This document shows positions 1,378 to 18,244 of a stretch of 47,358 nt of DNA, one piece after another. The notes below the pieces were generated by a model. The model saw only the letters and a list, made by a program, of their open reading frames with translations. It did not search any database and was not told where the DNA came from. This DNA is from Lachnospiraceae bacterium (GTDB lineage Bacteria > Bacillota > Clostridia > Lachnospirales > Lachnospiraceae), in the NCBI GenBank assembly GCA_017620155.1, contig JAFZQY010000041.1, positions 1 through 47,358 of the forward strand, written 5' to 3'. The translations under genes and the position numbers were made by a program. Positions within the stretch are counted from its first letter, which is position 1. Each line of letters starts with the position of its first letter.

Positions 1378-1395
1378 AATAAAATCCTCCTGTTG

Positions 1396-1649: not shown

Positions 1650-1675
1650 AAACTTGTTGTTGATGTTGTCGTACT

Positions 1676-1692
1676 TATAAACATTGTTTATA
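1676..1692. promoter_or_regulatory. Perfect 17-bp palindrome, candidate repressor operator
   Basis: TATAAACA-T-TGTTTATA is a perfect inverted repeat with 8-base arms. It covers the predicted start site of the leftward promoter and lies about 20 bases inside the rightward transcript. A related element with the same half-sites, TAAAC-N5-GTTTA, lies at 1763-1777 just before the regulator start codon. The XRE protein encoded at 1794 is the likely binder (inference). Confidence 0.55.
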
Positions 1693-1697
1693 TTGTC

Positions 1698-1725
1698 ATT
1701 ATATCAACATATAGTTTAGAGTCAA
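1698..1725 (-). promoter_or_regulatory. Promoter reading leftward into the phage-like operon
   Basis: On the minus strand: TTGACT (1725-1720), 16-base spacer, TATAAT (1703-1698). The predicted start is near 1691. It would drive the HTH, capsid and primase genes and its transcript crosses the opposing promoter at 1621-1649. Confidence 0.65.
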
Positions 1726-1793
1726 GGCTCCTTAAACAAGAAGTTGTGTTTTTGGAGCAATTTAAACTTGATGTTTATAAGAGAGGAAAACTG

Positions 1794-2372: not shown

Positions 2373-2386
2373 AAAGGAACATAGAC

Positions 2387-2869: not shown

Positions 2870-2900
2870 AAGGCAGGGGATTAATATTCCTCTGCCTTTT
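2868..2900. terminator. Bidirectional intrinsic terminator
   Basis: AAAAGGCAGGGGA, 7-base loop, TCCTCTGCCTTTT: a 13-bp stem with one G-T pair, with U-runs available on both strands. It ends the rightward XRE operon and the leftward operon that stops at 2903. A near-identical hairpin core occurs at 6039-6062. Confidence 0.8.
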
Positions 2901-2902
2901 AC

Positions 2903-3226
2903 TCACTTTCCAACGCAACAACTCTTGCATCGCTTGGATAAATTATAAAAGTAAGTCTGTAAATAAAAATTCTTATACTCCGCCATTTCTTCGTTTTTCA
3001 AATCAACGTCATCCCGAATAAATACGTTCTTATCTGTAATGCTTCCGAATAGTTTATCCCACTCTTCTTTTTTGTTCATACGAAGCATTTTATCAAAAGA
3101 AATAACCACGTATCCAGTGTCGTTATTATCTAATGATAGCGAAATATCAACCATAGGATTATCTTGCTCGTCTACTGGCATATCTTCAAACAAATAATCC
3201 TGATAAAAGCACTTTTCCTTACTCAT
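2903..3226 (-). CDS. Hypothetical protein, last gene of the DUF4417 operon
   Basis: The product is 107 residues, beginning MSKEKCFYQDYLFEDMPVDE and ending with a small Cys cluster (KRCKSCCVGK). I chose the ATG at 3226 because it overlaps the stop of the preceding gene as TGATG, which indicates translational coupling; the in-frame start further up has no support. Much of it is hydrophilic with a predicted beta hairpin (DTGYVVISFDKML). It has no membrane segment and I recognise no family. Its position at the end of a toxin/immunity-like set is compatible with an immunity or accessory role, but that is a guess. Confidence 0.55.
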   Translation of the reverse strand: MSKEKCFYQDYLFEDMPVDEQDNPMVDISLSLDNNDTGYVVISFDKMLRMNKKEEWDKLFGSITDKNVFIRDDVDLKNEEMAEYKNFYLQTYFYNLSKRCKSCCVGK

Positions 3227-3639
3227 CAGAAGCAAAACCCTACTACTGCTTTCAATTCGATAGCCTTTTCTACAAGAGAACGGAATTCCTTAGCCAGTTT
3301 CAGAACTTCCTCATTGTCGCAATTATTTATTGTTCGATTTGTTATTTCCAAAATCTGAGGGAGAATATCGGGCTCAGCATACTCCTCCTCATACATGTTG
3401 ATGAGTAAACCACATTCTGCATCTATAAAATTGAACAGATACTTTTCCATCAACAAAAATATTCTTTCATCGAACCAAAAACCTTGATACCCGTCCTTAA
3501 TATCACCGTTATCATCGAAAAAGTGACAATCATAAATGTTGTTTTCTAGATCTTTATTCAATGCTATCACAATATAATAGCGGTGCTTAGGATTTAGGTA
3601 TTCGACATAGCCCGGTATTTTATTATTGTTATCAGCCAT
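3226..3639 (-). CDS. Hypothetical protein, possibly immunity-like
   Basis: A 137-residue acidic protein (PGYVEYLNPKHRYYIVIALN at the start; EFRSLVEKAIELKAVVGF at the end). Its ATG lies one base after the stop of the gene before it, and its stop overlaps the next ATG, so it is tightly coupled on both sides. Small acidic cytosolic proteins placed directly after a basic protein are often immunity proteins or antitoxins. The gene before it encodes a basic protein of 144 residues. No family is recognised and the immunity idea rests only on size, charge and position. Confidence 0.55.
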   Translation of the reverse strand: MADNNNKIPGYVEYLNPKHRYYIVIALNKDLENNIYDCHFFDDNGDIKDGYQGFWFDERIFLLMEKYLFNFIDAECGLLINMYEEEYAEPDILPQILEITNRTINNCDNEEVLKLAKEFRSLVEKAIELKAVVGFCF

Positions 3640-3640
3640 A

Positions 3641-4075
3641 TTACACCGTTCCTTTCTTATACGTCATTCGGAAATGAGTTAATCGTAACCATTCGTCTTT
3701 CCGCGCCCTTCCCTGAAAGGTCCCTGGAATACTTGGATCTTTAAGATCAAGATTCACGTATCTTCCGTCAGTTCCATCCGGTCTTTTCTCCTGAATGCGA
3801 AAATACTTTCCTCCAACCGCAGCTACAATAGCATACTCTCTACCATCTTTAAAAAATGATATTTTTCTTTGATTGTGCTCCATGTTGTAGGTATCACTGG
3901 TAATATTGAATTTTGCCACATACTCGTCAAGATTCACCGCTTGCCATCCGCTAGCGAACTTTTTGTACTCATCTCTGTCCTTAAGAACACCCTTGATCGT
4001 ACCTATATCTCTCGACAAAATTAGCTGGTGTATGATCTTTTTGCGTGTATCAGTATAAATTGCTTTTGCTCCCAT
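3641..4075 (-). CDS. Hypothetical basic protein, possibly toxin-domain-like
   Basis: A 144-residue basic protein. Its start codon overlaps the stop of the DUF4417 gene (TAATG), and the next gene starts one base after its stop. The C-terminal half reads KYFRIQEKRPDG, then a G-rich stretch, then DEWLRLTHFRMTYKKG. A compact basic end with a conserved-looking THFR is reminiscent of small nuclease-type toxin domains of polymorphic toxin systems, but I cannot place it in a named family. There is no secretion signal. Alternatively it is a nucleic-acid-binding partner of the DUF4417 protein. Confidence 0.5.
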   Translation of the reverse strand: MGAKAIYTDTRKKIIHQLILSRDIGTIKGVLKDRDEYKKFASGWQAVNLDEYVAKFNITSDTYNMEHNQRKISFFKDGREYAIVAAVGGKYFRIQEKRPDGTDGRYVNLDLKDPSIPGTFQGRARKDEWLRLTHFRMTYKKGTV

Positions 4076-4818
4076 TATGCAGCACCTCCTTTAGCGGCAT
4101 CCGCATACGGAACCTTTGTGACCTTACTTCCTATCATATAATAACGGTAGCTCTTACTATTATTTCTTACGCGGTTTCTACGATCAGGAAATGCAATTAT
4201 TTCAAATCCGTGTCGTTGTATAAGATGTGTTGCCGTCGCCTTAGATATGGATCCATATACAAATAGTACCGGAGGTTTCTTTTTGCTTAGCACTATTTCT
4301 AACTGATACTCTCCGTACCGCTTGAATCCGTTATTTGAGCAGCCAAGATTTCCAACAATAAATGAACAATCATCCGGGAAATAATCAGCAGCACAAATTG
4401 TTCCAAAATCTCCGGCGCGATAATTCGGAAGAACTTTTATCCCTTTTGTGCCTATGTAGCATGCATGAATAGCATTGACCAAAATACTGAGTCTTTGCCT
4501 AATCCGAAGCATTCCGACACACGGGCTAAGATCAAAACCAGATACTCCCCCATATTTCTTCAGCTCTTCAATATCTGCATTAATCTTATTCAATCTCGGC
4601 CACAGCTTATCTTCATACATGTAATACGTAAGAAGCGCTGTTTGTCTTGACTCGATAGGAATATCATTTCGGTATGCATAAGTAGAAACTGCAGAAGGTT
4701 TCTCTTTATAGAGATATTCCTCAGGTAGCTGTGGGATTCCTTTTTTGAATGGAATGCCATTGTCTTTGAGGTACGAAATATGCTCATCGCACCATGTTAA
4801 AAGATTAAATTGTAACAT
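4075..4818 (-). CDS. DUF4417 domain protein
   Basis: The 247-residue product matches what I know of DUF4417, a family found in phages and bacterial mobile elements. It has a ...GGVSGFDLSPC... segment in the place of the family's 'SPDFSLY' block. This is followed by the long helix ending in GTKGIKVLPNYRAGD, then FIVGNLGCSNNGFKRYGEYQ and a final VLFVYGS strand. The biochemical function of the family is unknown to me. It is the first gene of a four-gene coupled operon, has GGAAAGGA before its ATG, and lies behind a 218-base non-coding stretch with inverted repeats. The family call is moderately sure. Confidence 0.65.
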   Translation of the reverse strand: MLQFNLLTWCDEHISYLKDNGIPFKKGIPQLPEEYLYKEKPSAVSTYAYRNDIPIESRQTALLTYYMYEDKLWPRLNKINADIEELKKYGGVSGFDLSPCVGMLRIRQRLSILVNAIHACYIGTKGIKVLPNYRAGDFGTICAADYFPDDCSFIVGNLGCSNNGFKRYGEYQLEIVLSKKKPPVLFVYGSISKATATHLIQRHGFEIIAFPDRRNRVRNNSKSYRYYMIGSKVTKVPYADAAKGGAA

Positions 4819-4896
4819 TTTAATTCCTTTCCGGGATATAGTAATCCCTCAAATGATGTCGCTTTAAATGCTGATTTCATTGGACATTCAAAAGGA

Positions 4897-4940
4897 GATA
4901 TGATACAATTCAATCTACAGAAACGGATATGTATCATATC
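4897..4940. repeat. 11-bp inverted repeat upstream of the DUF4417 operon
   Basis: GATATGATACA (4897-4907) and TGTATCATATC (4930-4940) are exact inverted copies separated by 22 bases, within the 218-base gap 4819-5036. They could be an operator for a dimeric regulator such as the XRE protein encoded at 5934, or the stem of a leader RNA. I see no convincing promoter for the DUF4417 gene in this gap. Confidence 0.45.
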
Positions 4941-4943
4941 CTG

Positions 4944-4989
4944 AAAGCACTCTTCATACTACGCCAATAGTATGTTTAAAGGGTGCTTT
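4944..4989 (+). terminator. Compound hairpin, possible terminator
   Basis: AAAGCAC (4944-4950) pairs with GTGCTTT (4983-4989). Inside it CATACTA (4955-4961) pairs with TAGTATG (4968-4974). On the plus strand it is followed by TCCTTTT. No rightward gene ends here, so it may end a short RNA or, read leftward, limit readthrough from the immA-like gene. Confidence 0.4.
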
Positions 4990-5036
4990 TCCTTTTGAAA
5001 AGATTAATACATTCAATTTTAACCACCTCACTTTCT

Positions 5037-5624
5037 TTAAATTTCATTTCCTTGATCCCTGATAAAAATCTCATATGCATCTTTATCGAGATGCTCCAGT
5101 AAAGGAATCTCATAATCAAAAATCCTATTACCGTGTTTACGCTTACGATTTCGAATGTTGGATGCTGCGTTCCCTGCGGCCTCCATACTGACATGACAAG
5201 CGGAAACTATCTCTTCCTCCATCTCTATTCCCTTTATCAATAAGTACGGGATTGGACACATAAAGTATCTTCCGAAAAAATCCGCCAGGTCATCAAATTC
5301 ATCATCATCGGTATCCTCATTATATACATAATGCTTTACCTCATGAAATATTGTAAGTCTCCTGGCACCCTCGGATTCATATCTATCATTGTAATAAATT
5401 GTAGGCGTCCGGCCTTTTGTACCTTTGACAAAGAATCCGCACTTTGATCTTTTTCTTAGTAAAACCCTTGTATCTCGATCGTATTCCGAATACGGGACAA
5501 GTGATACACCTAGTTTCTTACATACCACTTCCTCGTCTATCGGAAATTCCCGAATGTCATAATCTAAATAAATCTGTATTATGACTTTCTTTATCTCATC
5601 GTAAGTATCTGAGTCCCTATACAT
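5037..5624 (-). CDS. ImmA/IrrE-family metallo-endopeptidase
   Basis: The product is 195 residues starting MYRDSDTYDE. That ATG overlaps the end of the repressor gene by 8 bases, so I prefer it to a start at 5651. The zinc-protease motif HEVKH lies at about residues 93-97 in RRLTIFHEVKHYVYN, with an acidic stretch and DDLADFFGRYFMCP after it. This is the layout of ImmA/IrrE (DUF955) proteases. In ICEBs1 of Bacillus, ImmA cleaves the paired repressor ImmR to switch on a mobile element. Here the partner repressor lies immediately upstream in the same operon. Which genes the pair controls is not clear from the window. Confidence 0.85.
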   Translation of the reverse strand: MYRDSDTYDEIKKVIIQIYLDYDIREFPIDEEVVCKKLGVSLVPYSEYDRDTRVLLRKRSKCGFFVKGTKGRTPTIYYNDRYESEGARRLTIFHEVKHYVYNEDTDDDEFDDLADFFGRYFMCPIPYLLIKGIEMEEEIVSACHVSMEAAGNAASNIRNRKRKHGNRIFDYEIPLLEHLDKDAYEIFIRDQGNEI

Positions 5625-5934
5625 TCTTGCCGCCTCCAAGCAAAAGAGCAATCAGTTTATTCTTCTCCTCAGAAGACAGTTCATCGCCTTTTCGGGCTAT
5701 TGCAGTTGCAATTGCATTATAAGCAGATTGTCCCCGCTCATCCTCATCAAGGAAATAATCCGTTTCCACCTGTAACGCTTTCGCGATATTAACAATTACG
5801 TCCATCCTGGGAACAATATCACCCTTTAAATATCGCGATAAAGAACTCTCAGCTATTCCGCTGAGTTTTGAAAGCTGCTTTTGGTTTACTCCTTTCTTCT
5901 TCATTAATTCGTGAACTTTCTGGCTCCATTCCAT
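5617..5934 (-). CDS. XRE-family repressor paired with ImmA-like protease (ImmR-like)
   Basis: From the ATG at 5934 (AGGAAGG upstream) the product is 105 residues beginning MEWSQKVHELMKKKGVNQKQ. A helix-turn-helix occupies roughly residues 8-62 (QLSKLSGIAESSLSRYLKG) followed by a short acidic linker and helix. A longer frame to 5991 would read through the promoter and is rejected. Overlap with the downstream metalloprotease gene marks the pair as one operon. Its own promoter holds a palindrome in the -35/-10 spacer, which is a natural site for autorepression. Confidence 0.82.
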   Translation of the reverse strand: MEWSQKVHELMKKKGVNQKQLSKLSGIAESSLSRYLKGDIVPRMDVIVNIAKALQVETDYFLDEDERGQSAYNAIATAIARKGDELSSEEKNKLIALLLGGGKNV

Positions 5935-5978
5935 ACGCACACCTTCCTCTCTACAAACATTGACGTAATGTTGATTAT

Positions 5979-6007
5979 ATAATAATTCCATTACTGGAAT
6001 TTGTCAA
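5979..6007 (-). promoter_or_regulatory. Promoter of the ImmR/ImmA-like pair with embedded operator
   Basis: Minus strand: TTGACA (6007-6002), 17-base spacer, TATTAT (5984-5979). The spacer is nearly filled by the perfect palindrome AATTCCA-TTAC-TGGAATT (5984-6001). A partial direct copy, CCATTATTGAAAT, lies just upstream at about 6009-6021. This fits repression by blocking RNA polymerase binding. Confidence 0.7.
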
Positions 6008-6038
6008 CCCATTATTGAAATCACCTGAATAATATATA

Positions 6039-6062
6039 AGGCAGGGGATTACTCCTCTGCCT
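6039..6062. terminator. Hairpin terminator, second copy of the 2868 core
   Basis: AGGCAGGGGA, loop TTAC, TCCTCTGCCT. The core matches the hairpin at 2868-2900 almost exactly. It lies between the promoter of the ImmR/ImmA-like pair and the end of the leftward operon that stops at 6087. It most likely ends that operon, although the U-run is poor on this copy. Confidence 0.55.
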
Positions 6063-6086
6063 AATTAATTGGTGACATCATGTAGT

Positions 6087-6374
6087 TCATTCCTCAAAAA
6101 GAATATCGTCAATTCGGTCATGAAAAGACTTCTCGTTCCAAAACGGTGTTTCAAGAAGCATAAGAAAATTCTTATTGTATCCGATTCTATTCCAGTCTTT
6201 ATCAGCAATAATATAACCGTGATCTTCGCCGGTACAATAATACATTGCCCCGTCTATCCAAAAGGAAAAATCTACTGTCATCGGCGGATTATCCTTTCGC
6301 TCCGGGAATTCATCCCATCTCTGATATTTACAGAACTGCTGCCAAGTCATCTTAGTTACGTTTTTTCCATCCAT
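6087..6374 (-). CDS. Hypothetical protein (95 aa)
   Basis: A small protein, MDGKNVTKMTWQQFCKYQRW to KSFHDRIDDILFEE, with AGAGG ahead of the start. It is rich in aromatic residues (DFSFWIDGAMYYCTGEDHGYII), suggesting a compact beta fold. It is the last gene of a tight five-gene leftward operon, 24 bases after the preceding stop, and ends before a hairpin. I recognise no family; the size and position would fit an immunity or accessory protein. Confidence 0.55.
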   Translation of the reverse strand: MDGKNVTKMTWQQFCKYQRWDEFPERKDNPPMTVDFSFWIDGAMYYCTGEDHGYIIADKDWNRIGYNKNFLMLLETPFWNEKSFHDRIDDILFEE

Positions 6375-6398
6375 AAATACAAAACCTCTTTGTATGGA

Positions 6399-6773
6399 TT
6401 ATTTCATTTGTATATCGAAGAATTGAGACAAGTGCCTAACTGATTTTAAGGACTCTTCCCCAAGGTATCTTCCCAGCTTTCTGAAACCACCATTATCTTC
6501 TGTCATCAAATCTTCAAGGACAGTAACTTCGGCAACATTAGCAATTTCACTATTTTCCGAAGTTACCATTTGTTCAACAAAGTCAAATGCCATCTGTGCT
6601 TTCTTGGGATCTTCCTCGGCCATCTTTATTATAAACGGACAAACCACCATACCGAAAACCACATGCATTCCTATCTCGACTTCTGCTCCTGTTTCTTCCT
6701 CTTTTGCTTTGAAATAATCCGCATATTCCGGAAACAGCTTCTTAAATTCATCATATAACTCTTCGTATTTCAT
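6399..6773 (-). CDS. Hypothetical acidic helical protein (124 aa)
   Basis: The product begins MKYEELYDEFKKLFPEYADY and is almost entirely helical and acidic, with FVEQMVTSENSEIANVAEVTVLEDL near the middle. That pattern resembles small proteins described as immunity or DUF7674-like, but I am not certain of the family. It starts 17 bases after the stop of the zinc-ribbon gene with GAGGATAT upstream. No membrane segment is present. It belongs to the same transcript as the Sel1-repeat and zinc-ribbon genes. Confidence 0.55.
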   Translation of the reverse strand: MKYEELYDEFKKLFPEYADYFKAKEEETGAEVEIGMHVVFGMVVCPFIIKMAEEDPKKAQMAFDFVEQMVTSENSEIANVAEVTVLEDLMTEDNGGFRKLGRYLGEESLKSVRHLSQFFDIQMK

Positions 6774-6790
6774 GGCAGCATATCCTCATA

Positions 6791-7561
6791 CTACAAATAC
6801 TTACAATCCATTAAATCGGGATACTTCTTGGTTATATCAGGGGATATATTGTATTCAACCTCAAGCTCGGTAAGTCTTTTGATTATCTGTACCGCTTCGT
6901 AATGCTTGACTGTAGTCTGGACCATTCCTTTTTCATCTAGTATTTTTAATAAGTCCATGACATTAAGTTCGAATACTTTAGATACCTTGATCTTCTTCAC
7001 TTTTTCAACATTACTCACCGTGATGGTATAATCCAAATCATCATTCATACAAGGCGGGAAAAAACTTGCTCCGATAACATCAAACCCGCAGTTGCTACAC
7101 TTAAGTGCCATACAGGCACCATCTAAGCTACAGAGAAGGGTTTCATTTCCGCATTCAGGGCATTTGCCTATCTTAGGGTTTTCATACTCCTTACGAATAC
7201 AATACCGGCAGATATCGTCAGACATGCAATATCGCATTAACCCTTCGTTTACCAGATCATCCAATGTGGTTTCGTATTGCGCAAGCTCATCAGGATTTGC
7301 CGCGCACAACTTGCTTTGATCTACACAGGAATGATTGTGCCACCATACCGGGACAAGATAACTATAATGGCCGTATGAATGGCAATTACTGCACCATGCC
7401 CACGCACCGCCACGATTGGTATCTTCATATCGGTTAATATAGATATGCGCTCTTTTCGCTCCGCAATCAGGGCATACAACCGGGTATTCAGGCCTTCCTT
7501 CTACAAAAGGCTTAAATATCTGATCTATATTTTCACTGTCGTGCCACGCTATCTTTCCCAT
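6791..7561 (-). CDS. Multi-zinc-ribbon protein of unknown function
   Basis: A 256-residue protein with CxxC knuckles near residues 30 (CPDCG), 57 (CSNCH), 119 (CRYC), 134 (CPECG) and 154 (CSNCG). Taken in pairs they can form two to three zinc ribbons. The last 90 residues (SNVEKVKKIKVSKVFELNVM onward) are a helical domain that resembles part of a ribosomal L7/L12-like or scaffold fold only weakly. Zinc ribbons of this kind usually bind nucleic acid or hold protein complexes together. It sits 16 bases downstream of the Sel1-repeat gene. No known family is claimed. Confidence 0.6.
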   Translation of the reverse strand: MGKIAWHDSENIDQIFKPFVEGRPEYPVVCPDCGAKRAHIYINRYEDTNRGGAWAWCSNCHSYGHYSYLVPVWWHNHSCVDQSKLCAANPDELAQYETTLDDLVNEGLMRYCMSDDICRYCIRKEYENPKIGKCPECGNETLLCSLDGACMALKCSNCGFDVIGASFFPPCMNDDLDYTITVSNVEKVKKIKVSKVFELNVMDLLKILDEKGMVQTTVKHYEAVQIIKRLTELEVEYNISPDITKKYPDLMDCKYL

Positions 7562-7577
7562 ACAACACCTATTGCAT

Positions 7578-9467
7578 TTACAGCTTTTTAATGATCTTCT
7601 TAAATCTTTCTATCGGAAGACCGAGCTGGCTTTCATATTTATCAGTAACAGCGACTACCTTTACTGCCTTTTCTCCATCATATCCTTTAACGATTACCTC
7701 ATCTCCGACTTTTACAGATTTATCATCGCAAAGATAATCGTAGCACCTTCCGCTTTCTTCAAAGCATACACTGACGAAATGATATACCTTACCGGATAAT
7801 TCCTTTTTTACTGCCGGAGCAGTGAAAGAATAACCATCGGTGCAAATTTCCCCCACGCACTTATCATATAAGTAGAATTTTGTAGTACGCTTTCCGTAAT
7901 CAAACTCTACATGATCAAAAATGATTTCCGATGAACCATCAGCAATTTCAAATGTACTGTTCTTGGCTGTTTTGATGGTTATCTTATCCCTCAACTCGCA
8001 ATAGTCTGCCTTTGGAATAGTGATAAGCATCAAAGGCGCTTTATCTTCGTCAAAGCGTTTTATCGGTGAAGCAGAAAGGGAAAGAACTCCATCTTTCAAC
8101 CCTTTAACCTTCAATCTGCATCTTCTGTGTTTTATCAGCGCCCATTTTGTCCATCCCGGATAAAAGAACTGTTCTGTACGGCCCTTTTTCGTATACTCTT
8201 TTCTGACTTCTTCAAGTGCCTTCTGAACGCCGTTAAATACAACGGTGTCCCCGTAGTGATTGGCAACCGCCGTTCTTTTTCTTATCGCAAAATCAGCCTG
8301 AAGATAGTAATAATATGCCGTCTCCAGATCTTTCTGAGCTCCTATTTCATCACGGAAACAGTTACCCATACGGAGCGCAGCATCGGCGAATTTACATTCA
8401 TAGTCTTCTTTTACGAATCTCTTTATATTTTGCTTGTAAACACTCCAATACAGATGGTTTGCCGTTTCACCATCCTTTACTACGCCGTAACCATGAGCAA
8501 ACATATCGGCAAGCTTATAGGTGCTTTCAAAATATGTGTATGCATGACCGATACTAAAGTATTTAAATGCTTCCTCATATTCCGGCACACCGCCGTTACA
8601 TCTACCGTAGTAATATATGTATCCCAATGTATTCGCAGCTGATGCATCACCGGTCAACTGGTAATACTCTAAAAATGCATCTCTTGCCTTGATCCAATCA
8701 TTCGGATAAATCTTCGTTCCGCAATAATAACAGTAACCTCTTCTCTGTATAGCCTTCGGGTCTTTTTTATCACAAAGACTATCAAGACATTTCTTAAAAA
8801 GCTGTTGAGTCTTTTCCGACTGCTTATCTATACTGTCACTGTCAAACTGCTGGGCAATTCGAATTGTAAGACTCTCAGGGTACTCTTTTCCTTTCGACTT
8901 TACCCAGACCTCCAGACATTCCCTTAGGTTTTTAAAGTCCTCGGGCAGCAATTCCACAGGGTTTTCTTCAAGAATATCCCATCTTATTTCTTCGAGTTCA
9001 TTGTATGCAAGACTAAGGATATCTTTCTCTTTTACCTCATCGACTATATCTTCCCAAGGCGACTCCGGGAATGACAGATCTTCCTCAAACTGCATGATTG
9101 TATCAATCCATTTAAGAACATCCTCGGGCGGCATTCCGTCATAAGCGTTCACTCCTGCAAGAAGGTCTGCCGCAGATACTTTATATGCCTTGGAATCGGT
9201 CTTTACATATTCGGAAAGATAATTTATCCCATTACTCACTGCATCCAGGGTCAGTTCACCCCTAACAAAAGGTCCTAACTGCGATGTTTTTATAGCTGGA
9301 GTTTCTGCTGGCTTAAGTTCATGATCTTTAAACGTGATATATTCCGGCTCTATGTATTCTTTATCATAAAAGCAAAGCGTTACCTTTGTTCGTTCTCTAT
9401 CTTCAACTACTCCAATTCTTCCTGTCGCAATAACCTCGGCACAAGCCCCTATCTCTAATCTGGCCAT
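7578..9467 (-). CDS. Sel1/TPR-like repeat protein
   Basis: The product is 629 residues from the ATG at 9467; GGAGG directly upstream overlaps an in-frame GTG at 9473, so the ATG is the better start. The N-terminus (MARLEIGACAEVIATGRIGV) looks like a small beta barrel. The middle (about residues 260-350) holds Sel1-type helical repeats such as AANTLGYIYYYGR and STYKLADMFAHGYGVVKDGE. The last 200 residues are beta-rich and end with VGDEVIVKGYDGEKAVKVVAV. Sel1 repeats bind other proteins. With its neighbours it forms an uncharacterised operon directly downstream of hsdR. Confidence 0.7.
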   Translation of the reverse strand: MARLEIGACAEVIATGRIGVVEDRERTKVTLCFYDKEYIEPEYITFKDHELKPAETPAIKTSQLGPFVRGELTLDAVSNGINYLSEYVKTDSKAYKVSAADLLAGVNAYDGMPPEDVLKWIDTIMQFEEDLSFPESPWEDIVDEVKEKDILSLAYNELEEIRWDILEENPVELLPEDFKNLRECLEVWVKSKGKEYPESLTIRIAQQFDSDSIDKQSEKTQQLFKKCLDSLCDKKDPKAIQRRGYCYYCGTKIYPNDWIKARDAFLEYYQLTGDASAANTLGYIYYYGRCNGGVPEYEEAFKYFSIGHAYTYFESTYKLADMFAHGYGVVKDGETANHLYWSVYKQNIKRFVKEDYECKFADAALRMGNCFRDEIGAQKDLETAYYYYLQADFAIRKRTAVANHYGDTVVFNGVQKALEEVRKEYTKKGRTEQFFYPGWTKWALIKHRRCRLKVKGLKDGVLSLSASPIKRFDEDKAPLMLITIPKADYCELRDKITIKTAKNSTFEIADGSSEIIFDHVEFDYGKRTTKFYLYDKCVGEICTDGYSFTAPAVKKELSGKVYHFVSVCFEESGRCYDYLCDDKSVKVGDEVIVKGYDGEKAVKVVAVTDKYESQLGLPIERFKKIIKKL

Positions 9468-9482
9468 AGACACCTCCGTTTT

Positions 9483-10132: not shown

Positions 10133-13100
10133 CTATTCAGTAACCGCACTAACATACTGTGAAAGCCTGCTGGCATAAGCGCCGACACGCTCTTCCATAT
10201 TGTTGTTATCAGTCCAAAGCTCACACTGAAGCATAACGGTCTGTACTGCATCATCCATACCTTCCGGCGGATATTTATGCTTCTTAAGGAGTTTCTTGAT
10301 CATCATACGCATGCTCGCACGTGCGGACTCTCGCTTCTGCCAGTCGATAGTCCGGTTATTACGGAGTGCATCAGCAAGTTCCTTTGTGATAGCAATCAGT
10401 TCTTCATTTTCATAGAAGTCCTTTATCGCCTGTGGCTTGGTAAGGGCATCATAGAAAGCAAGCTCATCGGCGGTAAGGCCGAGTTCCTCACCTTCTTTTT
10501 GTGCAGCCTGTATCTGCTTAGCCAGATTAAGCAGTTCCTCAATAACCTGCTCATTTGTAAGCATGCCGTTAAGGTAGCGGTTCATCGCCTGCTGGATAAT
10601 CTCACTAAACTTTTCAGACTTAACAACGTTAGTTCTCTTATATATGATTACCTGCTCGGATATCAGCTTCTTTAACAGCTCAACTGCAAGGTTCTTCTCC
10701 TTCATCTTTCCGATCTCTTCGAGAAACTTAGGATCGAAAAGTGAGAAGTCTCCGTTTACATCCGAGAACAGATTTATTACACCGGTGCTCTTTATACTCT
10801 GCTCGAGAAGTGCGTTGATTCGCTCATTCATTTCCGGGAGTGATATTTTCTTGCCTTCTCCCTGATTGATAAGGCGTCCAACAAGAACTCGTACAGATTC
10901 AAAGAATGCTGCCTCCACTCTGAGTTTTTCTTCTACAAGAGACGAACACAATGATAGTGCCTGCCTCATAAGGAGTGCTTCCTTAAGGAAGTCATCTCTT
11001 TCGGTCGCTTTATCAACATCGACAATAAAGTTCACGGCGCCGCTAATGGCTCTTGACCTTTCAAGGTCAGTTCCGGTCATAAACTTAGAATAATCACATC
11101 CGTGGAACAGATCACGGCATACCGATAACTTCTCAAGGAACTTAGGATAAGCAACCTTGGCAACATCGGTATCACCATAGTTCTTCTTATCACGAGATGT
11201 GTAATCGTTCATTGCTTGCTTAAGAGCAGATGCAATACCAACGTAATCTACAACCAATCCACCTTCTTTATCGCCGAATACTCTGTTGACTCTGGCGATG
11301 GCCTGCATAAGGTTATATCCCTGCATAGGCTTATAAACATACATGGTGGCAAGTGAGGGAACATCGAATCCGGTAAGCCACATATCTACAACGATGGCTA
11401 TCTTCAACGGATCATCATTATCCTTAAAGCGCTTTGCGAGTTCTTCTTTATGACGCTTGTTTCCTATAATTGAATGCCATTCTTCCGGGTCCTTATTGCT
11501 TTCTGTCATTACAACAGCAACCTTATCTGTCCATGAAGGTCTGACCTTTAAAATTTGATCATATATCTTCATGGCGATAGCTCTGCTGTACGCAACTATC
11601 ATAGCCTTTCCGGTAAGAAGATCGGCTCTGTAATTCTCATAATGATCGAGAATATCGTTTACAAGAGAGTTGATGGTCTGCTCGTTGCCGAGAATAGCTT
11701 CCATCTGCCCAAGTTCTCTCTTACTCTTAGCAACAACCTCGGGATCGGCGTTATTTGCCATAATGTCGTATTCCTGGTCAATCAGCTTAAGAGTATCCTG
11801 ATCAAGATTAAGCTTGATAACACGGCTTTCATAATAAACAGGGCGTGTTGCTCCGTCCTCAACCGCCTGTGTCATATCATAAACATCGATGTAATCACCG
11901 AATACTTCGCGAGTGCTTCTATCCTTTAATGAAATAGGTGTTCCGGTGAAACCGATATATGTTGCATTCGGTAAGGTATTTCTGATAACACGCGCCGTAC
12001 CTATTTTGATCTTACCGGTTTCGGGATCTACCTTTTCTTTAAGACCATACTGACCACGGTGCGCCTCATCAGCCATCACAACGATATTGCGGCGCTCTGA
12101 AAGAGGCTCATCAGATTCTTCGAACTTCTGCATCGTTGTGAATATGATTCCGTTTGCCTGTCTGCCGTCCAATAACGACTTAAGATGCTCCCTGCTCTCC
12201 GCGTGTAAAGGTTCCTGACGAAGGAAATCTTTACACTTTGCAAATTGAGAGAATAGCTGATCATCAAGGTCATTACGGTCTGTCAGAACAACTATGGTGG
12301 GGCTGTCCAATGCCTCCTGCAATCTATGAGCGTAGAAAACCATCGACAATGACTTACCGGAGCCTTGTGTATGCCAGAACACTCCGCCCTTTCCGTCTGT
12401 CTCTGTCGCATGCTTTGTAGATGCTATGGCTTTATTAACCGCAAAGTACTGATGATACCCGGCAAGGATCTTATATTGCCTTAACCCTTCATTCGAAAAG
12501 CATATGAAGTTCTTTATGATATCAAGCAGTCTTTCTTTTTCAAATATGCCTTCGAAAAATGTATCAAACTGAGCATACTGCGTATTCTCGTAGTTACCGT
12601 CCTTCGTTTTCCACTCCATGTAACGGTCTTCGCCGGAAGTTATTGTTCCGGCTTTCGAAGTAAGGTGGTCACTCATAACACAGATGCAGTTATATATGAA
12701 CATAGACGGAATCTCATGCATGTAATTGCGGATCTGCGTATATGCCTCTGAAGCATCCGTCTCTTCTCTTGAAGGAGATTTCAATTCCACGAGAACAACC
12801 GGGAGCCCATTAAGGAATAACAATACATCCGGGCGTTTATTGCTGTTTTCGATATATGTCCACTGATTCGCTACCACAAAAGAGTTGTTATCTACATTTT
12901 TATAATCAACAAGATATACAAGTCCGGATCGTTCTTCCCCTTTTACAAGGTATCGAACCTCCACACCATGTTGAAGATAATCCATAAAAACAGAATTCTT
13001 CTGAACAAGATCCGCATTCTCAAAGTTCTTTAATTTGAACAATGCGTCTGCGATGGCATCATTCGGCATATCAGGATTGATACGTCTTAATGCATCATCC

Positions 13101-13231
13101 AGTTCCTGCTCATAAAGAGGACTTGTAAAGTCTCGTTCCAAATCCGGTGCATACACGTGTCGGTAGCCCATGTTTTGGAACAATTCTATTATGGAATTTT
13201 CGTAATCTGCTTCAGTGTAAAATCCTGGCAT
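10133..13231 (-). CDS. hsdR: Type I restriction enzyme endonuclease/translocase subunit HsdR
   Basis: The 1032-residue product has the full HsdR layout. A RecB-type nuclease domain lies in the first 170 residues, with the key VVLVELKSP block near residue 150. The helicase motor follows with Walker A HTQGSGKS near residue 290, the DEAH box (VVMADEAHRGQYG) near 390, the GFTGTPI motif, and helicase motif VI near QAIARVNRVFG. A long helical C-terminus contacts the methylase core. It translocates DNA and cuts unmethylated targets in complex with HsdM and HsdS. AAAGGAG precedes the ATG. It is separated from hsdM/hsdS by the cassette and recombinase region, so it probably has its own promoter. Confidence 0.97.
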   Translation of the reverse strand: MPGFYTEADYENSIIELFQNMGYRHVYAPDLERDFTSPLYEQELDDALRRINPDMPNDAIADALFKLKNFENADLVQKNSVFMDYLQHGVEVRYLVKGEERSGLVYLVDYKNVDNNSFVVANQWTYIENSNKRPDVLLFLNGLPVVLVELKSPSREETDASEAYTQIRNYMHEIPSMFIYNCICVMSDHLTSKAGTITSGEDRYMEWKTKDGNYENTQYAQFDTFFEGIFEKERLLDIIKNFICFSNEGLRQYKILAGYHQYFAVNKAIASTKHATETDGKGGVFWHTQGSGKSLSMVFYAHRLQEALDSPTIVVLTDRNDLDDQLFSQFAKCKDFLRQEPLHAESREHLKSLLDGRQANGIIFTTMQKFEESDEPLSERRNIVVMADEAHRGQYGLKEKVDPETGKIKIGTARVIRNTLPNATYIGFTGTPISLKDRSTREVFGDYIDVYDMTQAVEDGATRPVYYESRVIKLNLDQDTLKLIDQEYDIMANNADPEVVAKSKRELGQMEAILGNEQTINSLVNDILDHYENYRADLLTGKAMIVAYSRAIAMKIYDQILKVRPSWTDKVAVVMTESNKDPEEWHSIIGNKRHKEELAKRFKDNDDPLKIAIVVDMWLTGFDVPSLATMYVYKPMQGYNLMQAIARVNRVFGDKEGGLVVDYVGIASALKQAMNDYTSRDKKNYGDTDVAKVAYPKFLEKLSVCRDLFHGCDYSKFMTGTDLERSRAISGAVNFIVDVDKATERDDFLKEALLMRQALSLCSSLVEEKLRVEAAFFESVRVLVGRLINQGEGKKISLPEMNERINALLEQSIKSTGVINLFSDVNGDFSLFDPKFLEEIGKMKEKNLAVELLKKLISEQVIIYKRTNVVKSEKFSEIIQQAMNRYLNGMLTNEQVIEELLNLAKQIQAAQKEGEELGLTADELAFYDALTKPQAIKDFYENEELIAITKELADALRNNRTIDWQKRESARASMRMMIKKLLKKHKYPPEGMDDAVQTVMLQCELWTDNNNMEERVGAYASRLSQYVSAVTE

Positions 13232-13245: not shown

Positions 13246-13995
13246 TTGCATTTAATTCCTTATATTCATATAAACGATAATTTACTTCAGCAAGCTCAGG
13301 CCATATTGACTGCGTTCTTTATCGACTTCAGCCATTTTGGCGGACAAGTCCCAGCCGATTGGGAACAGGGGACCTTACAAGACATTGCCGATTTTTCAAA
13401 TGGCTACGCTTTTAAAAGCAAGGAATTGCTCGATGCACCTGCTCCCGATTGCTTTCATGTATTTAAGCAAGGCCATATAAATCGTGGTGGCGGGTTTAAC
13501 TCTAACGGCACAAAGAGCTGGTATCCCATTAGCAAGTGCGCAAGCCTTTCTAAATACATTCTCCGCAAAGGTGATATTCTGATGGCAATGACTGATATGA
13601 AGGATAACGTTGCTATCCTTGGTAACACAGCCCTTATGACTGTAGATAATCAGTACATTGTTAATCAACGTGTAGGCCTTTTACGGAGCAATGGGTACAA
13701 AAGTACATCCTATGCTTACATTTACCTACTAACAAATAGTTTCGATTTCTTAAAAGATTTAAGAAGTCGAGCTAATAGCGGTGTACAAGTAAATCTATCA
13801 TCAACGGAGATAAAAGCTTCTCCAGTATGGATAGCGACCGATGCAGTAAACAAGGAATTCAATTCACTTACAGAGCCACTACTTACAATGATCATGACTA
13901 ATGATATAGAAAACCAACGGCTTGCGAGCATACGTGACACATTACTTTCGCAATTGATGTCCGGCGAACTCGATGTTTCTGAACTTAGTCTTTAG
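13246..13995 (+). CDS. Silent HsdS tail cassette (second target-recognition domain)
   Basis: This 249-codon frame encodes only the second half of an HsdS protein: the central conserved helix (INDNLLQQAQAILTAFF), one target-recognition domain (DWEQGTLQDIADFSNG onward) and the C-terminal helix ending SQLMSGELDVSELSL. The nominal start at 13246 is a TTG with no ribosome-binding site, so it is probably not translated where it stands. Coding sequence proper begins at the inversion site 13271-13284. An opposite-facing copy of the site (14001-14014) follows its stop. Joining this tail in frame to a head cassette through the sites would give a full HsdS of new specificity. Confidence 0.85.
   Translation: MHLIPYIHINDNLLQQAQAILTAFFIDFSHFGGQVPADWEQGTLQDIADFSNGYAFKSKELLDAPAPDCFHVFKQGHINRGGGFNSNGTKSWYPISKCASLSKYILRKGDILMAMTDMKDNVAILGNTALMTVDNQYIVNQRVGLLRSNGYKSTSYAYIYLLTNSFDFLKDLRSRANSGVQVNLSSTEIKASPVWIATDAVNKEFNSLTEPLLTMIMTNDIENQRLASIRDTLLSQLMSGELDVSELSL
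13271..13284 (+). repeat. hsdS inversion site a
   Basis: TAAACGATAATTTA, forward orientation, encoding the N-D-N-L of the HsdS central helix. It opens the silent tail cassette. It shares 19 bases (TCATATAAACGATAATTTA, 13266-13284) with site b in inverse orientation. Confidence 0.85.
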
Positions 13996-14000
13996 GCCGC

Positions 14001-14014
14001 TAAATTATCGTTTA
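14001..14014 (-). repeat. hsdS inversion site b
   Basis: Inverted copy of the 14-bp site, just after the stop of the silent tail. Read on the minus strand it continues GCGGCCTAA, so a head joined here would end N-D-N-L-A-A-stop. Confidence 0.85.
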
Positions 14015-14104
14015 TATGAGACATACTCTTACCAACGGCGAGAGTAATACCAACGGAACTGCCGTTGATGTCGTTCTCTGGAAATAATACAAAGGAGAAA
14101 CGAC

Positions 14105-15088
14105 ATGAAAAAGAAATTGAAAACAGAGGTAATCCAACAAATGCTACGTTACCTCGATAATGCTCAGATTAAGCAGCTTGAAAAGGTTATGGAGCATGTG
14201 CTTTTTCACTATGAGATAAGTGCTTCGAGATTCACGCAGGAGGATGATAGCAAAGATCTTGTATTGATGTTTATAGCTGCCAAACGCGTAGAGGGTTGTT
14301 CAGAAAAAACACTGAAATATTATCAGGCAACAATAGAAGCTATGATGGTATCGCTCGGAAAGAATGTCCGGCATATTCTAACAGAGGATTTAAGGACATA
14401 TCTTACAGAGTATCAAGATAAGAATAAGTCGAGTCGCGTGACAATAGATAATATCCGCCGTATACTTTCCAGTTTCTTTTCCTGGTTGGAAGATGAGGAC
14501 TACATAATAAAAAGTCCGGTACGCCGTATACATAAGGTTAAAACGATAAGTAGTATCAAGGAAACATATTCTGATGAAGACCTTGAGCAAATGCGCGACA
14601 ACTGTAATGAAATACGCGATTTGGCTATGATCGATATGCTTGCCTCAACAGGTATGCGCGTTGGAGAGCTGGTTCTGCTGAATCGTGATGATATTGATTT
14701 TGTTGAACGTGAGTGTGTGGTATTTGGAAAGGGCGATAAAGAACGAATTGTTTACTTTGATGCAAGAGCGAAACTGCATTTGCAGGAATATCTTGATAGC
14801 AGAACAGATGATAATCCGGCTCTTTTCGTATCATTAAGGGCACCGCATGATCGTATACATATCGGTGGTATTGAGCATAGATTACGCGAAATGGGCATGC
14901 GATTGAATATACAGAAGGTTCATCCACATAAATTTCGTAGGACATTAGCGACGATGGCGATAGATAAAGGAATGCCTATAGAGCAACTGCAACGACTACT
15001 AGGACATCAGCGGATAGATACGACTTTGCAATATGCAATGGTTAAACAGAGTAATGTAAAATCGGCTCATAGGAAATATATTGGATAG
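14105..15088 (+). CDS. Tyrosine recombinase (XerC/D-like), likely hsdS invertase
   Basis: The 327-residue product has a SAM-like N-terminal core-binding domain (about residues 45-135) and a C-terminal catalytic domain. Its conserved residues are visible: Arg in STGMRVGELVLL, Lys in GKGDKERIV, the HxxR box in HPHKFRRTLAT, the LLGH box and the nucleophile Tyr in TTLQYAMV. AAAGGAG lies upstream. It sits between the silent tail and the second head, inside the region flanked by inverted hsdS sites, which is the usual place for the enzyme that shuffles type I specificity genes. A small hairpin (CAACGG-N5-CCGTTG, 14051-14067) lies in its leader. The cassette downstream follows after 12 bases. Confidence 0.9.
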   Translation: MKKKLKTEVIQQMLRYLDNAQIKQLEKVMEHVLFHYEISASRFTQEDDSKDLVLMFIAAKRVEGCSEKTLKYYQATIEAMMVSLGKNVRHILTEDLRTYLTEYQDKNKSSRVTIDNIRRILSSFFSWLEDEDYIIKSPVRRIHKVKTISSIKETYSDEDLEQMRDNCNEIRDLAMIDMLASTGMRVGELVLLNRDDIDFVERECVVFGKGDKERIVYFDARAKLHLQEYLDSRTDDNPALFVSLRAPHDRIHIGGIEHRLREMGMRLNIQKVHPHKFRRTLATMAIDKGMPIEQLQRLLGHQRIDTTLQYAMVKQSNVKSAHRKYIG

Positions 15089-15100
15089 GAAGGGAATACA

Positions 15101-15601
15101 ATGAAACACTTATTAAGTGATATTGCGGATGTGACGATGGGGCAGTCTCCAAAGTCTGAATACTATAACTCGGATGGCCAGGGGATGCCATTCTTGCAGG
15201 GCAATAGAACTTTTGGAAAAAGGTATCCTGTTTTTGATACTTATACTACTATGCCAACTAAGACGGCAAAAGCTGGGGATGTAATCATGAGCGTCAGAGC
15301 GCCTGTTGGTGATTTAAATATCACCCCAGTTGATATGTGCCTTGGAAGGGGTGTTTGTGGGATACGTATGAAAAATGGTAATCAAGAGTTTCTGTTTTAC
15401 TTATTGAAATACTATATGCCACAACTGATAAATAAAGAGAGCGGAACCGTATTTGGCTCAGTTAATCGCAATGATATTAATGGACTGGAAATTGATATTC
15501 CAGAGAGTAAAGAAAGTCAGAGTAAGGTAGCAAGATTTCTTTCAATGATTGACGAGAAGATAGAGGTCAATGATGCAATAAACGATAATTTAGCGGCTTA
15601 G
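15101..15601 (+). CDS. HsdS head cassette (single target-recognition domain)
   Basis: The frame encodes 166 residues: one target-recognition domain (MKHLLSDIADVTMGQSPKSE to LEIDIPESKESQ) and the start of the central conserved helix, ending INDNLAA-stop. Unlike the silent tail it has a strong ribosome-binding site (AGGAAGGG) and follows the recombinase by 12 bases, so a half-size HsdS is probably made. Half-HsdS proteins can work as dimers in some type I systems (established). Inversion of 15593-16284 between sites c and d would replace the AA-stop with the tail EEQALALFRHYF and give a full HsdS on this strand. Confidence 0.88.
   Translation: MKHLLSDIADVTMGQSPKSEYYNSDGQGMPFLQGNRTFGKRYPVFDTYTTMPTKTAKAGDVIMSVRAPVGDLNITPVDMCLGRGVCGIRMKNGNQEFLFYLLKYYMPQLINKESGTVFGSVNRNDINGLEIDIPESKESQSKVARFLSMIDEKIEVNDAINDNLAA
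15579..15592 (+). repeat. hsdS inversion site c
   Basis: TAAACGATAATTTA at the end of the rightward head cassette, followed by GCGGCTTAG (A-A-stop). It shares 19 bases (TAAACGATAATTTAGCGGC) with site b. Confidence 0.85.
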
Positions 15602-16746
15602 ATGTCAATGCTAGAGACATCCAGTTCACCGGACATTAATTTCGGTAATAATGCATCTCTAGTGGATGATAAGCGCTGTATTTCATCGATATTTGACTTG
15701 GTTTGCATCCTAATTGAATGAAGTACAGAACCAATTTTCCTCTGTTCATCCATTGGTGGAAGCATAAAACGGTATTTTTTGAAGTCCTTAAGGACTATTC
15801 TTGGTAATGCCGAACCAGAAACATAGTTATCGCCTACGTCCTTTCGAACGGAAGGTTGTTTAAGGAGGTACAGGAGAATCTCCGGAATTATAATATTTGT
15901 ATCAGGTCTAAAAATAGCGATGGATGAAAGTATTGCTTCATCTTTCTCTTCGGAACAGATGAATATCTCTTTCAGATAACTTCCATCCTTTGCGACCAAG
16001 ATGTCATTAATCAGAGGAACACAGTCGCCTTTTTGCATTTTTCGGAAATCTTCCTCTGAAATGTGCTTGCAGGACGAGGCATTGAAACCATAAGTTTCCA
16101 TATCCTTGACGGAATACATAGGGTATGGCGATTCAGGAGCATCAGCGGGACTATAGTGCGATCCGTCAGTTATCCGGGTACATACATCATCTAGCGATAC
16201 TTCTGTCCAGTCAGAAGGAGCAACACCGCCATATGGTGCAAAATCCATGAAGTAATGGCGAAAAAGCGCTAACGCTTGCTCCTCTAAATTATCGTTTACC
16301 TCCTCATTGAGTTTGATTTTTTCATCAATAGGATCAAGCACAGACAGAACCTGCTTTTGATAATCAAGATCAGGAATGTCAAGCTCCAGCCGATTGAGTG
16401 TTTCTGTCCGCAGGCTCGGAATCGTTGTTCCTTCGTTATAGGAATCCAAATCAAGCAAGGACATTAGATAATAGAGATACTTCGGGATTACCAGTTCCTC
16501 ATTGACCTCTGTATAAAACAGAGTATCCACCGTCCAAAATGGATGATCCACATAGCGAACCTTATTAATGGTTCCTTTTCTTCCTATCAGGACAGAAGGC
16601 TTATCATATAACGCATCCGTAGCATATCCCATAAGTCCGCCAGTACCATATATGGGAAATGCACCGTCTACCGATTCAACCTTCTTTTGATTCTTTCCAT
16701 ATTTGATTTTTACAAGTTCGCCCAGAGTCAATAGATTATATTTCAT
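15598..16746 (-). CDS. hsdS: Type I restriction specificity subunit HsdS (expressed copy)
   Basis: The product is 382 residues from the ATG at 16746, which has AGGAG nine bases upstream; a TTG at 16752 is too close to that site. The first target-recognition domain starts MKYNLLTLGELVKIKYGK. The central helix is EEVNDNLEEQALALFRHYFM, the second domain starts DWTEVSLDDVCTRITDGSHY, and the C-terminal helix ends PKLMSGELDVSSIDI. HsdS sets the DNA sequence recognised by both methylase and nuclease. The gene overlaps the 3' end of hsdM by 11 bases. Its stop shares bases with the stop of the convergent head cassette. The inversion site d lies exactly in the central helix. Confidence 0.95.
   Translation of the reverse strand: MKYNLLTLGELVKIKYGKNQKKVESVDGAFPIYGTGGLMGYATDALYDKPSVLIGRKGTINKVRYVDHPFWTVDTLFYTEVNEELVIPKYLYYLMSLLDLDSYNEGTTIPSLRTETLNRLELDIPDLDYQKQVLSVLDPIDEKIKLNEEVNDNLEEQALALFRHYFMDFAPYGGVAPSDWTEVSLDDVCTRITDGSHYSPADAPESPYPMYSVKDMETYGFNASSCKHISEEDFRKMQKGDCVPLINDILVAKDGSYLKEIFICSEEKDEAILSSIAIFRPDTNIIIPEILLYLLKQPSVRKDVGDNYVSGSALPRIVLKDFKKYRFMLPPMDEQRKIGSVLHSIRMQTKSNIDEIQRLSSTRDALLPKLMSGELDVSSIDI
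16285..16298 (-). repeat. hsdS inversion site d
   Basis: Inverted copy of the 14-bp site within the central conserved helix of the expressed hsdS, read on the minus strand as GTA-AAC-GAT-AAT-TTA-GAG (V-N-D-N-L-E). Confidence 0.85.
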
Positions 16747-18244
16747 ATCCAATCGCTCCTAACTTCTTGCGGATCTCATCTTCCAACTCATGTGACTTTG
16801 CAAACATATTCGAAAGCTCCGATGTTAGTCTTCCCATCTTCTCCTCGAAGGGCTCACCATCATCTTCCTGTTCCTCGATACCCACATATCTTCCGGGAGT
16901 GAGGATATAATCCTGCTTCTCGATATCCTGGAGTGTTGTCACAGAGCAGAATCCCTTTACATCTTCAAGCGTTCCGTTCTGGAAAGCCTCGAAAGTATCT
17001 GCAAGTTTCTGTATATCTTCCTCCGTAAAATCACGATGCTTACGATCAACCATGTGTCCCATCTTGCGAGCATCGATGAAGAGGGTCTTACCTTTCTACT
17101 TCTTACCCTTTGTGATAAACCACAGGGTAACCGGAATGGTAACGCTATAGAAAAGCTGTGTAGGCATAGCTATGATTCCCTCGATAAGGTCATCCTCTAT
17201 GATTTTCTTGCGGATTTCTCCCTCGCCGCTTGACTGAGTGGAAAGGGCACCATTCGCCAATACCAATCCAATCTTTCCGTTCGGAGCAAGATGGTGGATC
17301 ATGTGCTGAATCCACGCATAGTTGGCATTGCCTGCCGGAGGAATACCATATTTCCATCTGACATCATCAAGGAGCTTCTCCTGGTTCCAAGGGTGATAGT
17401 TGAACGGAGGATTCGCCAAGATGAAGTCGGCCTTTAATGTCGGATGGAGATCATTTGTGAATGTATCAGCCTGATAAGGTCCAAAGTCTGCATCGATACC
17501 TCGGATGGCCATATTCATCTTAGCCATCTTCCATGTGTCTGCATTAGCCTCCTGACCGTAAACAGCAATTGCTCCTCTCTTACCGGAATGGGCCTGTATG
17601 AACTTTGCACTCTGGACAAACATACCGCCGGAACCGCAACAGCAGTCATATACACGACAGTTATCAAAAGGCTTTAAAACAGATACGAGCGTCTTAACAA
17701 CACTTGAAGGAGTATAGAATTCTCCACCGCCTACACCTTCTTTTTCGGCAAACTGAGCAATGCAGTACTCGTAAGTTCTGCCGAGCAGATCCTCGCTTGC
17801 CTCGGTGTCGCTCATATCAATATTGTTTGTAAAGATATCAACCACCTCACCAAGGACTCTCTTATCAAGATCCGGGCTGGCATAGTTCTTCGGAAGAACG
17901 TTCTTAAGAGTTTTATTCTCGTTCTCGATTGCTCTCATAGCATTATCGATTACGGTACCGATCTCCGGTGTATGTGCCGCAGAGGCTATAGTACTCCATC
18001 TCGCTTCCTGAGGTACAAAAAACACATTCTCCATGGAGTACGCATCTCTGTCATCCTCAAATCCGTCACCCTCATCTACAAGTTCCTGATATCTTTTATC
18101 AAAAGCCGCAGAAATATAGCGAAGGAATATCAATCCGATTATTACTTTCCTGTACTCTGCTGACGGAATATGTCCCCACAAAACGCAGGCCGCATCCCAG
18201 AGTTGTTTCTCGAATCCGATATTCGCATTAGTCTTATCAGCCAT
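16736..18244 (-). pseudogene. hsdM: Type I restriction methylase subunit HsdM, interrupted by one in-frame stop
   Basis: The first 382 codons encode the N-terminal helical domain and the adenine methylase with motif I (VYDCCCGSGGMF) and motif IV (ADFILANPPF). They end LWFITKGKK, followed by TAG at 17098-17096. The same frame then continues KGKTLFIDARKMGHMVDRKH to KKLGAIGYEI, exactly what is expected after the stop, and overlaps hsdS by 11 bases. With the stop bridged the length is about 502 residues, normal for HsdM. So this is one gene with a nonsense codon, not two genes. The missing C-terminus is the part that contacts HsdS. A readthrough product or a sequencing error remain possible. GGAGGT precedes the ATG. 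Confidence 0.9.

Follow-up and report, generated by a model that had tools for sequence, protein, structure and literature searches.

A probable shuffling type I restriction-modification locus whose recombination junctions may tag half HsdS subunits for degradation and whose recombinase follows a pseudoknotted leader RNA

The closest described relative of the locus analysed here is SsuCC20p of Streptococcus suis. SsuCC20p has four 14-bp sites, which form two identical inverted pairs, TAAATCATCATTTA and its complement (PMC10790761). Deletion of xerD locks the locus, so switching requires the recombinase, and exactly one complete hsdS is present in assemblies and reads, for which the authors proposed coordinated double recombination (PMC10790761). 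Within the literature searched, TAAATCATCATTTA occurs in the SsuCC20p paper only, and the site strings of the wider family otherwise bring up nothing on hsdS shuffling by title. We describe here a locus in a 47,358-nucleotide stretch of a gut Lachnospiraceae bacterium (contig JAFZQY010000041.1, assembly GCA_017620155.1; called the window below). The locus is very probably a type I restriction-modification (RM) operon of the SsuCC20p kind, with hsdS shuffled at four identical sites by the recombinase lying between them; its halves may be degron-tagged and translation of its recombinase may be gated.

The sequence TAAACGATAATTTA occurs as four exact copies in the window, in the order + - + -, around a tyrosine recombinase and pieces of hsdS. 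These are sites a (13271..13284, +), b (14001..14014, -), c (15579..15592, +) and d (16285..16298, -), and a renewed search returned all four as the first-pass annotation had listed them. The site core is TAAA-N6-TTTA, with CGATAA as its centre in the window, and the identity between sites a and b extends to 19 bp. Chance repeats are rejected as the source of the four sites: the window holds five matches with at most two mismatches, against a mean of 0.58 and a maximum of 2 in 100 shuffles, and the 2.84-Mb draft genome contains no further exact copy and a single copy with one mismatch. Site a lies about 40 bp upstream of hsdR and opens silent tail 2, site c ends head 2, and site d lies within the complete hsdS; only these three touch HsdS reading frames. 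Site b comes shortly after the stop codon of the silent tail and before the recombinase leader. The annotation had assigned every site to the N-D-N-L codons of HsdS in one phase. In the phase of the cassette next to it each site does read N-D-N-L; site b, though, is outside any hsdS gene, and the same phase there gives NDNL-A-A-stop.

Along the + strand the locus runs hsdR (-), site a, silent tail 2 (+), site b, leader RNA, recombinase (+), head 2 (+), site c, tail 1 (-), site d, head 1 (-) and hsdM (-). Domain searches place type I hsdM, hsdR and hsdS in this one locus, with hsdM interrupted by a stop. The window has exactly one complete hsdS, made of head 1 and tail 1 (15598..16752, -; Methylase_S in two stretches, E 6e-37). 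Tail 1 spans 15598..16298 (-). Silent tail 2 (13271..13995, +; Methylase_S, E 3e-8) carries a C-terminal target-recognition domain (TRD) and the HsdS end, GELDVSELSL. Each of the two tail cassettes lies between inverted copies of the same 14-bp site. Head 2, with an N-terminal TRD (15101..15601, +; Methylase_S, E 1.9e-17), is currently dead-ended as ...NDNLAA-stop. The tyrosine recombinase (14105..15088, +; 327 amino acids; Phage_integrase, E 3.5e-31) has R185, K209, H275, R278, H301 and Y310, which are invariant in 99 of 99 aligned recombinases. hsdR (10133..13231, -; TIGR00348, E 5e-183; Pfam HSDR_N and SWI2_SNF2) forms the downstream end of the operon. hsdM is split into a C-terminal part (16736..17062, -; N6_Mtase, E 1.6e-11) and an open reading frame (17096..18244, -) that reaches as far as the in-frame stop at 17096-17098. 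With HsdR, HsdM, HsdS and Phage_integrase domains all recognised, the annotated hsdS shuffling system with its own tyrosine recombinase inside is supported.

We propose that this hsdM-hsdS-hsdR operon would have its hsdS shuffled at the TAAA-N6-TTTA sites by the recombinase encoded between them. A tail cassette between two inverted sites would make a complete HsdS when its start faces a head, and a dead end when its end does. Any head or outer flank could be joined to either end of either tail, and the resulting 16 arrangements would encode four complete HsdS proteins. A head placed on the end of a tail would stop soon, with a -LAA or -LVA ending in most relatives, and this ending may mark the half subunit for ClpXP-type destruction, so that the half would neither compete for HsdM nor pair with another half. 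The pseudoknotted leader that opens the recombinase mRNA would gate translation, its last helix pairing with the Shine-Dalgarno sequence. By enumeration, inversions between opposite copies reach 16 arrangements, and in 12 of these there is exactly one complete hsdS; this holds for 4 of the 8 arrangements with the recombinase in operon direction and for 8 of the 8 with it inverted. As annotated, site and cassette order mean that inversion between a and d joins the expressed head to the silent tail and that inversion between c and d moves the expressed tail to the other head. That list of inversions was incomplete, as a/b and b/c are also possible.

Relatives were collected by a protein scan of genome contigs, in which at least 584 stretches matched and at least 551 of them encode relatives; the best 80, with 70–86% identity, were kept. 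Further relatives come from 22 loci on viral contigs, 17 plasmid records and 7 phage records. A strong match is present in 19 of 391 genomes of the class and in 6 of 398 of the phylum, the own genome being counted in both. In the first set, the window plus the best 80, at least two identical cores are found in 78 of 81 loci and exactly four in 48. The final set began with 149 loci in which the recombinase was located; 37 had no recognised site set and were dropped, and removal of 12 near-duplicates from the other 112 left 100 non-redundant loci, 59 of which have four sites in + - + - order. L173 and L178, which lack a recombinase, and two low-scoring pseudo-sites of L175 were left out of the counts. 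There are 13 cores among the loci, and the recognised copies within one locus share a single six-base centre, an identical centre being the condition for recognising them. The centre tracks the recombinase tree, with 29 changes compared with a shuffled mean of 64. Recombinase relatives without a recognised site set are mostly 52–66% identical, and 26 of 29 such loci scanned have no convincing hsdS motif nearby; the exceptions are L198, L133 and L119, the last an annotated hsdS locus though its motif scan is blank. One recombinase relative is archaeal (L123, Methanosphaera plasmid pNP174; 57% identity) and lies near DUF2207 genes, not hsdS.

The 90 nt upstream of the recombinase (14015..14104, +) form a structured leader RNA with a fold z of -4.0. 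It has a P1 hairpin (14023-14030/14040-14047), a pseudoknot in which the P1 loop pairs with a downstream strand (14032-14039/14061-14068), and a third helix (14069-14078/14095-14104) that covers the Shine-Dalgarno sequence of the recombinase. Covariation was read from 53 distinct sequences, which remained of 65 leaders after 10 without the motif and 2 duplicates had been left out by eye. The six inner pseudoknot pairs are kept in 52–53 of the 53, and four of the six are changed on both sides in 11–19 sequences (CG 33/GC 17, AU 38/GC 11, AU 33/GC 19 and CG 33/UA 11). Pairing is kept in 7 of 53 at the outermost position as drawn and in 39 of 52 at the innermost one. The pseudoknot strands are also recovered independently by RNAalifold. 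Across the whole leader structure 114 cells are changed on both sides, a value reached by none of 500 shuffles and by no slid version. A local hairpin, CAACGG/CCGTTG, is rejected as the conserved fold, with 71% of cells paired vs 85% for the pseudoknot. The sequence GGRACU between the pseudoknot strands is conserved.

A model of the leader gives 33 matches in 32 of 62 loci, the window included (90.5 bits, the window being part of the model), and each match ends at most 4 bases from the recombinase start. It also matches where extra DNA separates site and leader. In 20 of 85 loci (L009, L010, L016, L025, L064, L066 and others) the stretch from the upstream site to the recombinase leader is longer by roughly 200–1100 bases, and L039 has five sites and two complete recombinase copies, each with a leader RNA. 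In 27 later loci the model has 13 matches, of which three (L173, L175 and L178) are without an intact recombinase. The leader is found in 11 of 200 genomes of the family, the own genome included. Several observations weigh against a conserved gating leader. For leader pairs with change on both sides, 47 of 500 shuffles score as high, and for further pair types 423 of 500 do. No model match is found in 30 of the 62 scanned loci, many of them distant relatives, and the Lactococcus and E. faecium relatives are without the leader. As to known RNA families, Rfam reports nothing at the gathering score in the window and nothing at the leader of 6 relatives; the sub-threshold matches at the leader are freshwater-2 (20 bits, 49.9 needed) and SpR10_sRNA (13.4, 50 needed). 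A DUF2800 RNA, a known Rfam family, lies in L006 at 168-327.

From the modelled helices we infer that recombinase translation may be gated by the leader RNA. The chances are about even that this leader is a translational switch controlled by a protein or the ribosome, and not a metabolite riboswitch. Such control is favoured by the recombinase gene following at most 4 bases behind each of the 33 matches, the second match in L039 included, and by the three later matches without an intact recombinase, which adjoin recombinase fragments or no gene (L173 5837-5939, L175 4144-4230 and L178 629-713). The conserved GGRACU between the pseudoknot strands would rather suit a ligand pocket.

The window copy may itself be active, and two features speak against this. 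The recombinase and head 2 of the window face against the operon, with hsdM and hsdR on the strand opposite to the recombinase; among 80 loci in which hsdM could be placed, only 5 have it opposite to the recombinase (the window, L012, L030, L097 and plasmid pRV500, L124). The window hsdM has the in-frame stop at 17096-17098, and 79 of 79 compared relatives read through this position. The hsdM stop, together with the inverted recombinase, may mean that this copy is idle. A frozen relic, in a family that shuffles, at a locus that here no longer switches or methylates, is a serious possibility that we consider the less probable one. The four sites, the frame and catalytic residues of the recombinase, both heads and both tails are intact, and since the source genome is a draft (88.6% complete with 6.6% contamination) the hsdM stop could be a sequencing or population variant. 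In window coordinates, the region 388-9473 is prophage-like, with a major head protein (388-1377), a phage-type repressor (1614-2372) and, up to hsdR, several unassigned genes.

Both dead ends of the window read NDNLAA-stop and fit a C-terminal Leu-Ala-Ala. The A-A-stop codons lie behind site b (13992..14000, -), where they overlap the tail 2 stop on the opposite strand, and behind site c (15593..15601, +), where they overlap the tail 1 stop on the opposite strand. The ssrA-type C-terminal degron ends in Leu-Ala-Ala or similar residues, and LAA and LVA are good ends for ClpXP. Dead ends number 173 across 98 loci, with AA as the last two residues in 101 and VA in 46, so that 147 have -AA or -VA endings, mostly -LAA or -LVA. 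The 173 include one in L183 that ends in SMC and derives from a disrupted tail. In the background set from the same loci, 1129 six-frame open stretches that have 200 codons or more and are not called genes, AA and VA together make up 2.6%. Six-residue dead ends are of NxNL-AA or NxNL-VA type in 130 of 151. Non-duplicate loci that were added once the pattern had been seen have 17 dead ends, 16 of which end in AA or VA and the other one in CA; this count omits the pseudo-sites of L175, the disrupted tail of L183 and a dead end of L200 that stays open. Dead-end peptides of L066, L075, L085 and L050 are lengthened to 50–53 residues by DNA behind the site and still end in AA.

The -AA and -VA endings could be a by-product of DNA constraints, namely the recombinase half-site and the overlapping stops of head and tail, and carry no protein signal; we consider this unlikely. 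The third base of the first tag codon beside the site is G in 109 of 130 adjacent tags, and this bias means that a DNA constraint is also favoured. Of 151 short dead ends, 126 have a stop that overlaps the tail stop on the opposite strand, always at the same offset. Where a tail starts next to the identical site the bases are different, yet G is favoured at that place there as well (61%). A protein signal is favoured because tail starts beside the same site otherwise differ and because longer or shifted dead ends keep AA or VA with other third bases. Of the 22 longer or shifted ends, 17 still have AA or VA; their penultimate codon has A as its third base in 8, T in 4, G in 3 and C in 2. Without 8 rows of the Ruminococcus group, 9 of 14 have AA or VA, with third base T in 4, A in 3 and G in 2. 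Examples are NKNLDYQLVA, NKNLYDVAA and ...SSLLAA, and in L169 the codons are GTC GCG TGA. The varied codons weaken a DNA-only origin, as judged from sequence.

The endings look like the ssrA degradation tag, and on this likeness the halves may be degraded by ClpXP. Besides the G bias, other observations count against such a tag. There are 26 of 173 dead ends without AA or VA, and one dead end of L200 reads open for more than 100 codons. Relatives with less than 69% identity have AA or VA in 14 of 20 dead ends. L. salivarius has them in 2 of 5, the others being AS, IA and VV, and VA of the Ruminococcus group runs antisense to conserved codons of the tail and could be a by-product. The gene clpX is present in the own genome, and transfer-messenger RNA (tmRNA) tags of the same genus read ANDDYALAAA in 4 of 4 scanned loci. 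A tmRNA of the own genome was not found, the weak matches being tRNAs. The Methanosphaera relative was tried as a ClpX-free tag control and is uninformative, as no hsdS is present in its annotated neighbours or in the motif scan. A bare ALAA without linker is a poor substrate of E. coli ClpXP in vitro, and ALAA works in context (PMC8512704).

A degron on the halves would matter because half HsdS proteins can in principle do harm: in other type I systems, fragmented hsdS genes lead to palindromic recognition motifs (PMC10030836). When a modular protein is shuffled site-specifically, broken halves are unavoidable. If true, a degron encoded by the recombination junction itself would deal with them in a simple and general way.

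Near-identical relatives rearranged at the sites show that the locus of this family moves. In Lactococcus plasmids, five segments of pJM2A recur with 100% identity in pUCCL627F, where the two tails have swapped slots and are inverted; the segment order in pUC073A is that of pJM2A. L034 and L038 have flanks 93.5% and 99.4% identical and a recombinase segment 99.9% identical, and between two sites an 878-bp tail segment, 99.8% identical, is inverted, while the other tail is wholly different. L007 and L097 also differ by an inverted tail segment (891 bp, 99.6%). The Lactococcus plasmid pJM1A (L130) has one 635-bp tail in both slots, so that the other tail, which is absent, has been lost or converted. 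This last outcome is unlike that of simple inversion and would suit homologous recombination or gene conversion between hsdS copies in place of the recombinase, an explanation we hold to be very improbable, since segments switch at 14-bp identities and deletion of xerD locks SsuCC20p (PMC10790761).

With recombinase-mediated shuffling as the preferred reading, the states of the relatives show a strong bias. Tail arrangement does not track the recombinase tree (18 changes in 51 loci, shuffled mean 17.3), suggesting that tails flip fast relative to divergence. Three of the 59 four-site loci (an N run, a disrupted tail and an open dead end) could not be resolved and were excluded, which reduces the set with hsdM in the usual direction from 45 to 42. 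In this set 41 of 42 have exactly one complete hsdS (21 with head 1, 20 with head 2) and one has two. Against an expectation of one half, this gives a binomial p of 2e-11, with loci treated as independent because the arrangement does not follow the recombinase tree. Four-site loci without a placed hsdM (n = 12) have one complete hsdS in 9, two in 2 and none in 1; L051, L111 and L134 among them look inverted by head positions. In any direction, exactly one complete hsdS is found in 52 of 56 resolved four-site loci. The 41 of 42 require coupled double recombination or selection, and what was a remark on one S. suis system becomes a family-wide rule.

The locus resembles SsuCC20p in having four TRDs, a recombinase encoded within the locus, a single complete hsdS at any time and a usable hsdS behind the recombinase (PMC10790761). 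The first-pass annotation knew of no described match for site and cassette order; SsuCC20p provides one, with four 14-bp sites and an order that, as implied by its text, is that of the window (PMC10790761). It differs in the central bases, which are not CGATAA, and the inverted recombinase of the window is a state absent from the S. suis assemblies and reads (PMC10790761). By analogy with SsuCC20p, recombinase-dependent switching and allele-specific methylation would be expected of the present locus. Other described systems are less similar. In pneumococcal cod/SpnIII with PsrA, hsdS inversions are also made by a locus-encoded tyrosine recombinase, but there are three unlike repeat pairs (15, 298 and 85 bp) and three hsdS genes, and only the 15-bp pair is strictly PsrA-dependent (PMC4948785, PMC7096588). 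This multi-repeat type is rejected for the window, which has one site sequence in four copies. The hsd locus of Listeria monocytogenes ST8 has hsdR, hsdM, two opposed hsdS flanking an integrase and four variants; its two repeat pairs are unlike (16 and 29 bp), and one is at the hsdS 5' end (PMC4783014). A lactococcal type I RM shufflon is described on pMPJM1 and pMPJM2 (PMC6458302), and the JM1 and JM2 plasmid records, which by strain names and plasmid sizes are probably those megaplasmids, carry a member of the present family. A REBASE survey of invertible hsdS describes inverted repeats common to hsdS genes and required repeats of at least 20 bp, which 14-bp sites would escape (PMC7394358).

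Neither hsdS dead-end endings nor a recombinase leader RNA is described, by title, in the top-ranked literature matches on hsdS with degron/ClpXP or pseudoknot/riboswitch. Huang et al. 2020, reportedly on epigenetic invertons, may describe some of these loci. In the main text of the SsuCC20p paper, a word search finds no mention of degradation, degrons, ClpX, pseudoknots, untranslated sequence or alanine (PMC10790761). The mechanism is already known, being of the SsuCC20p kind, and the dead-end endings and the leader RNA are the family features not found described. We see an even balance for the broader claim of a widespread phase-variable type I class in which the junctions write an ssrA-like -LAA/-LVA degron on the half HsdS that is made beside a complete one in most arrangements, and in which a new pseudoknot RNA class gates the recombinase. 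If true, epigenetic switching in gut Firmicutes would have a conserved control point in the leader RNA, and switching of the SsuCC20p kind could be regulated in this family, not merely random.

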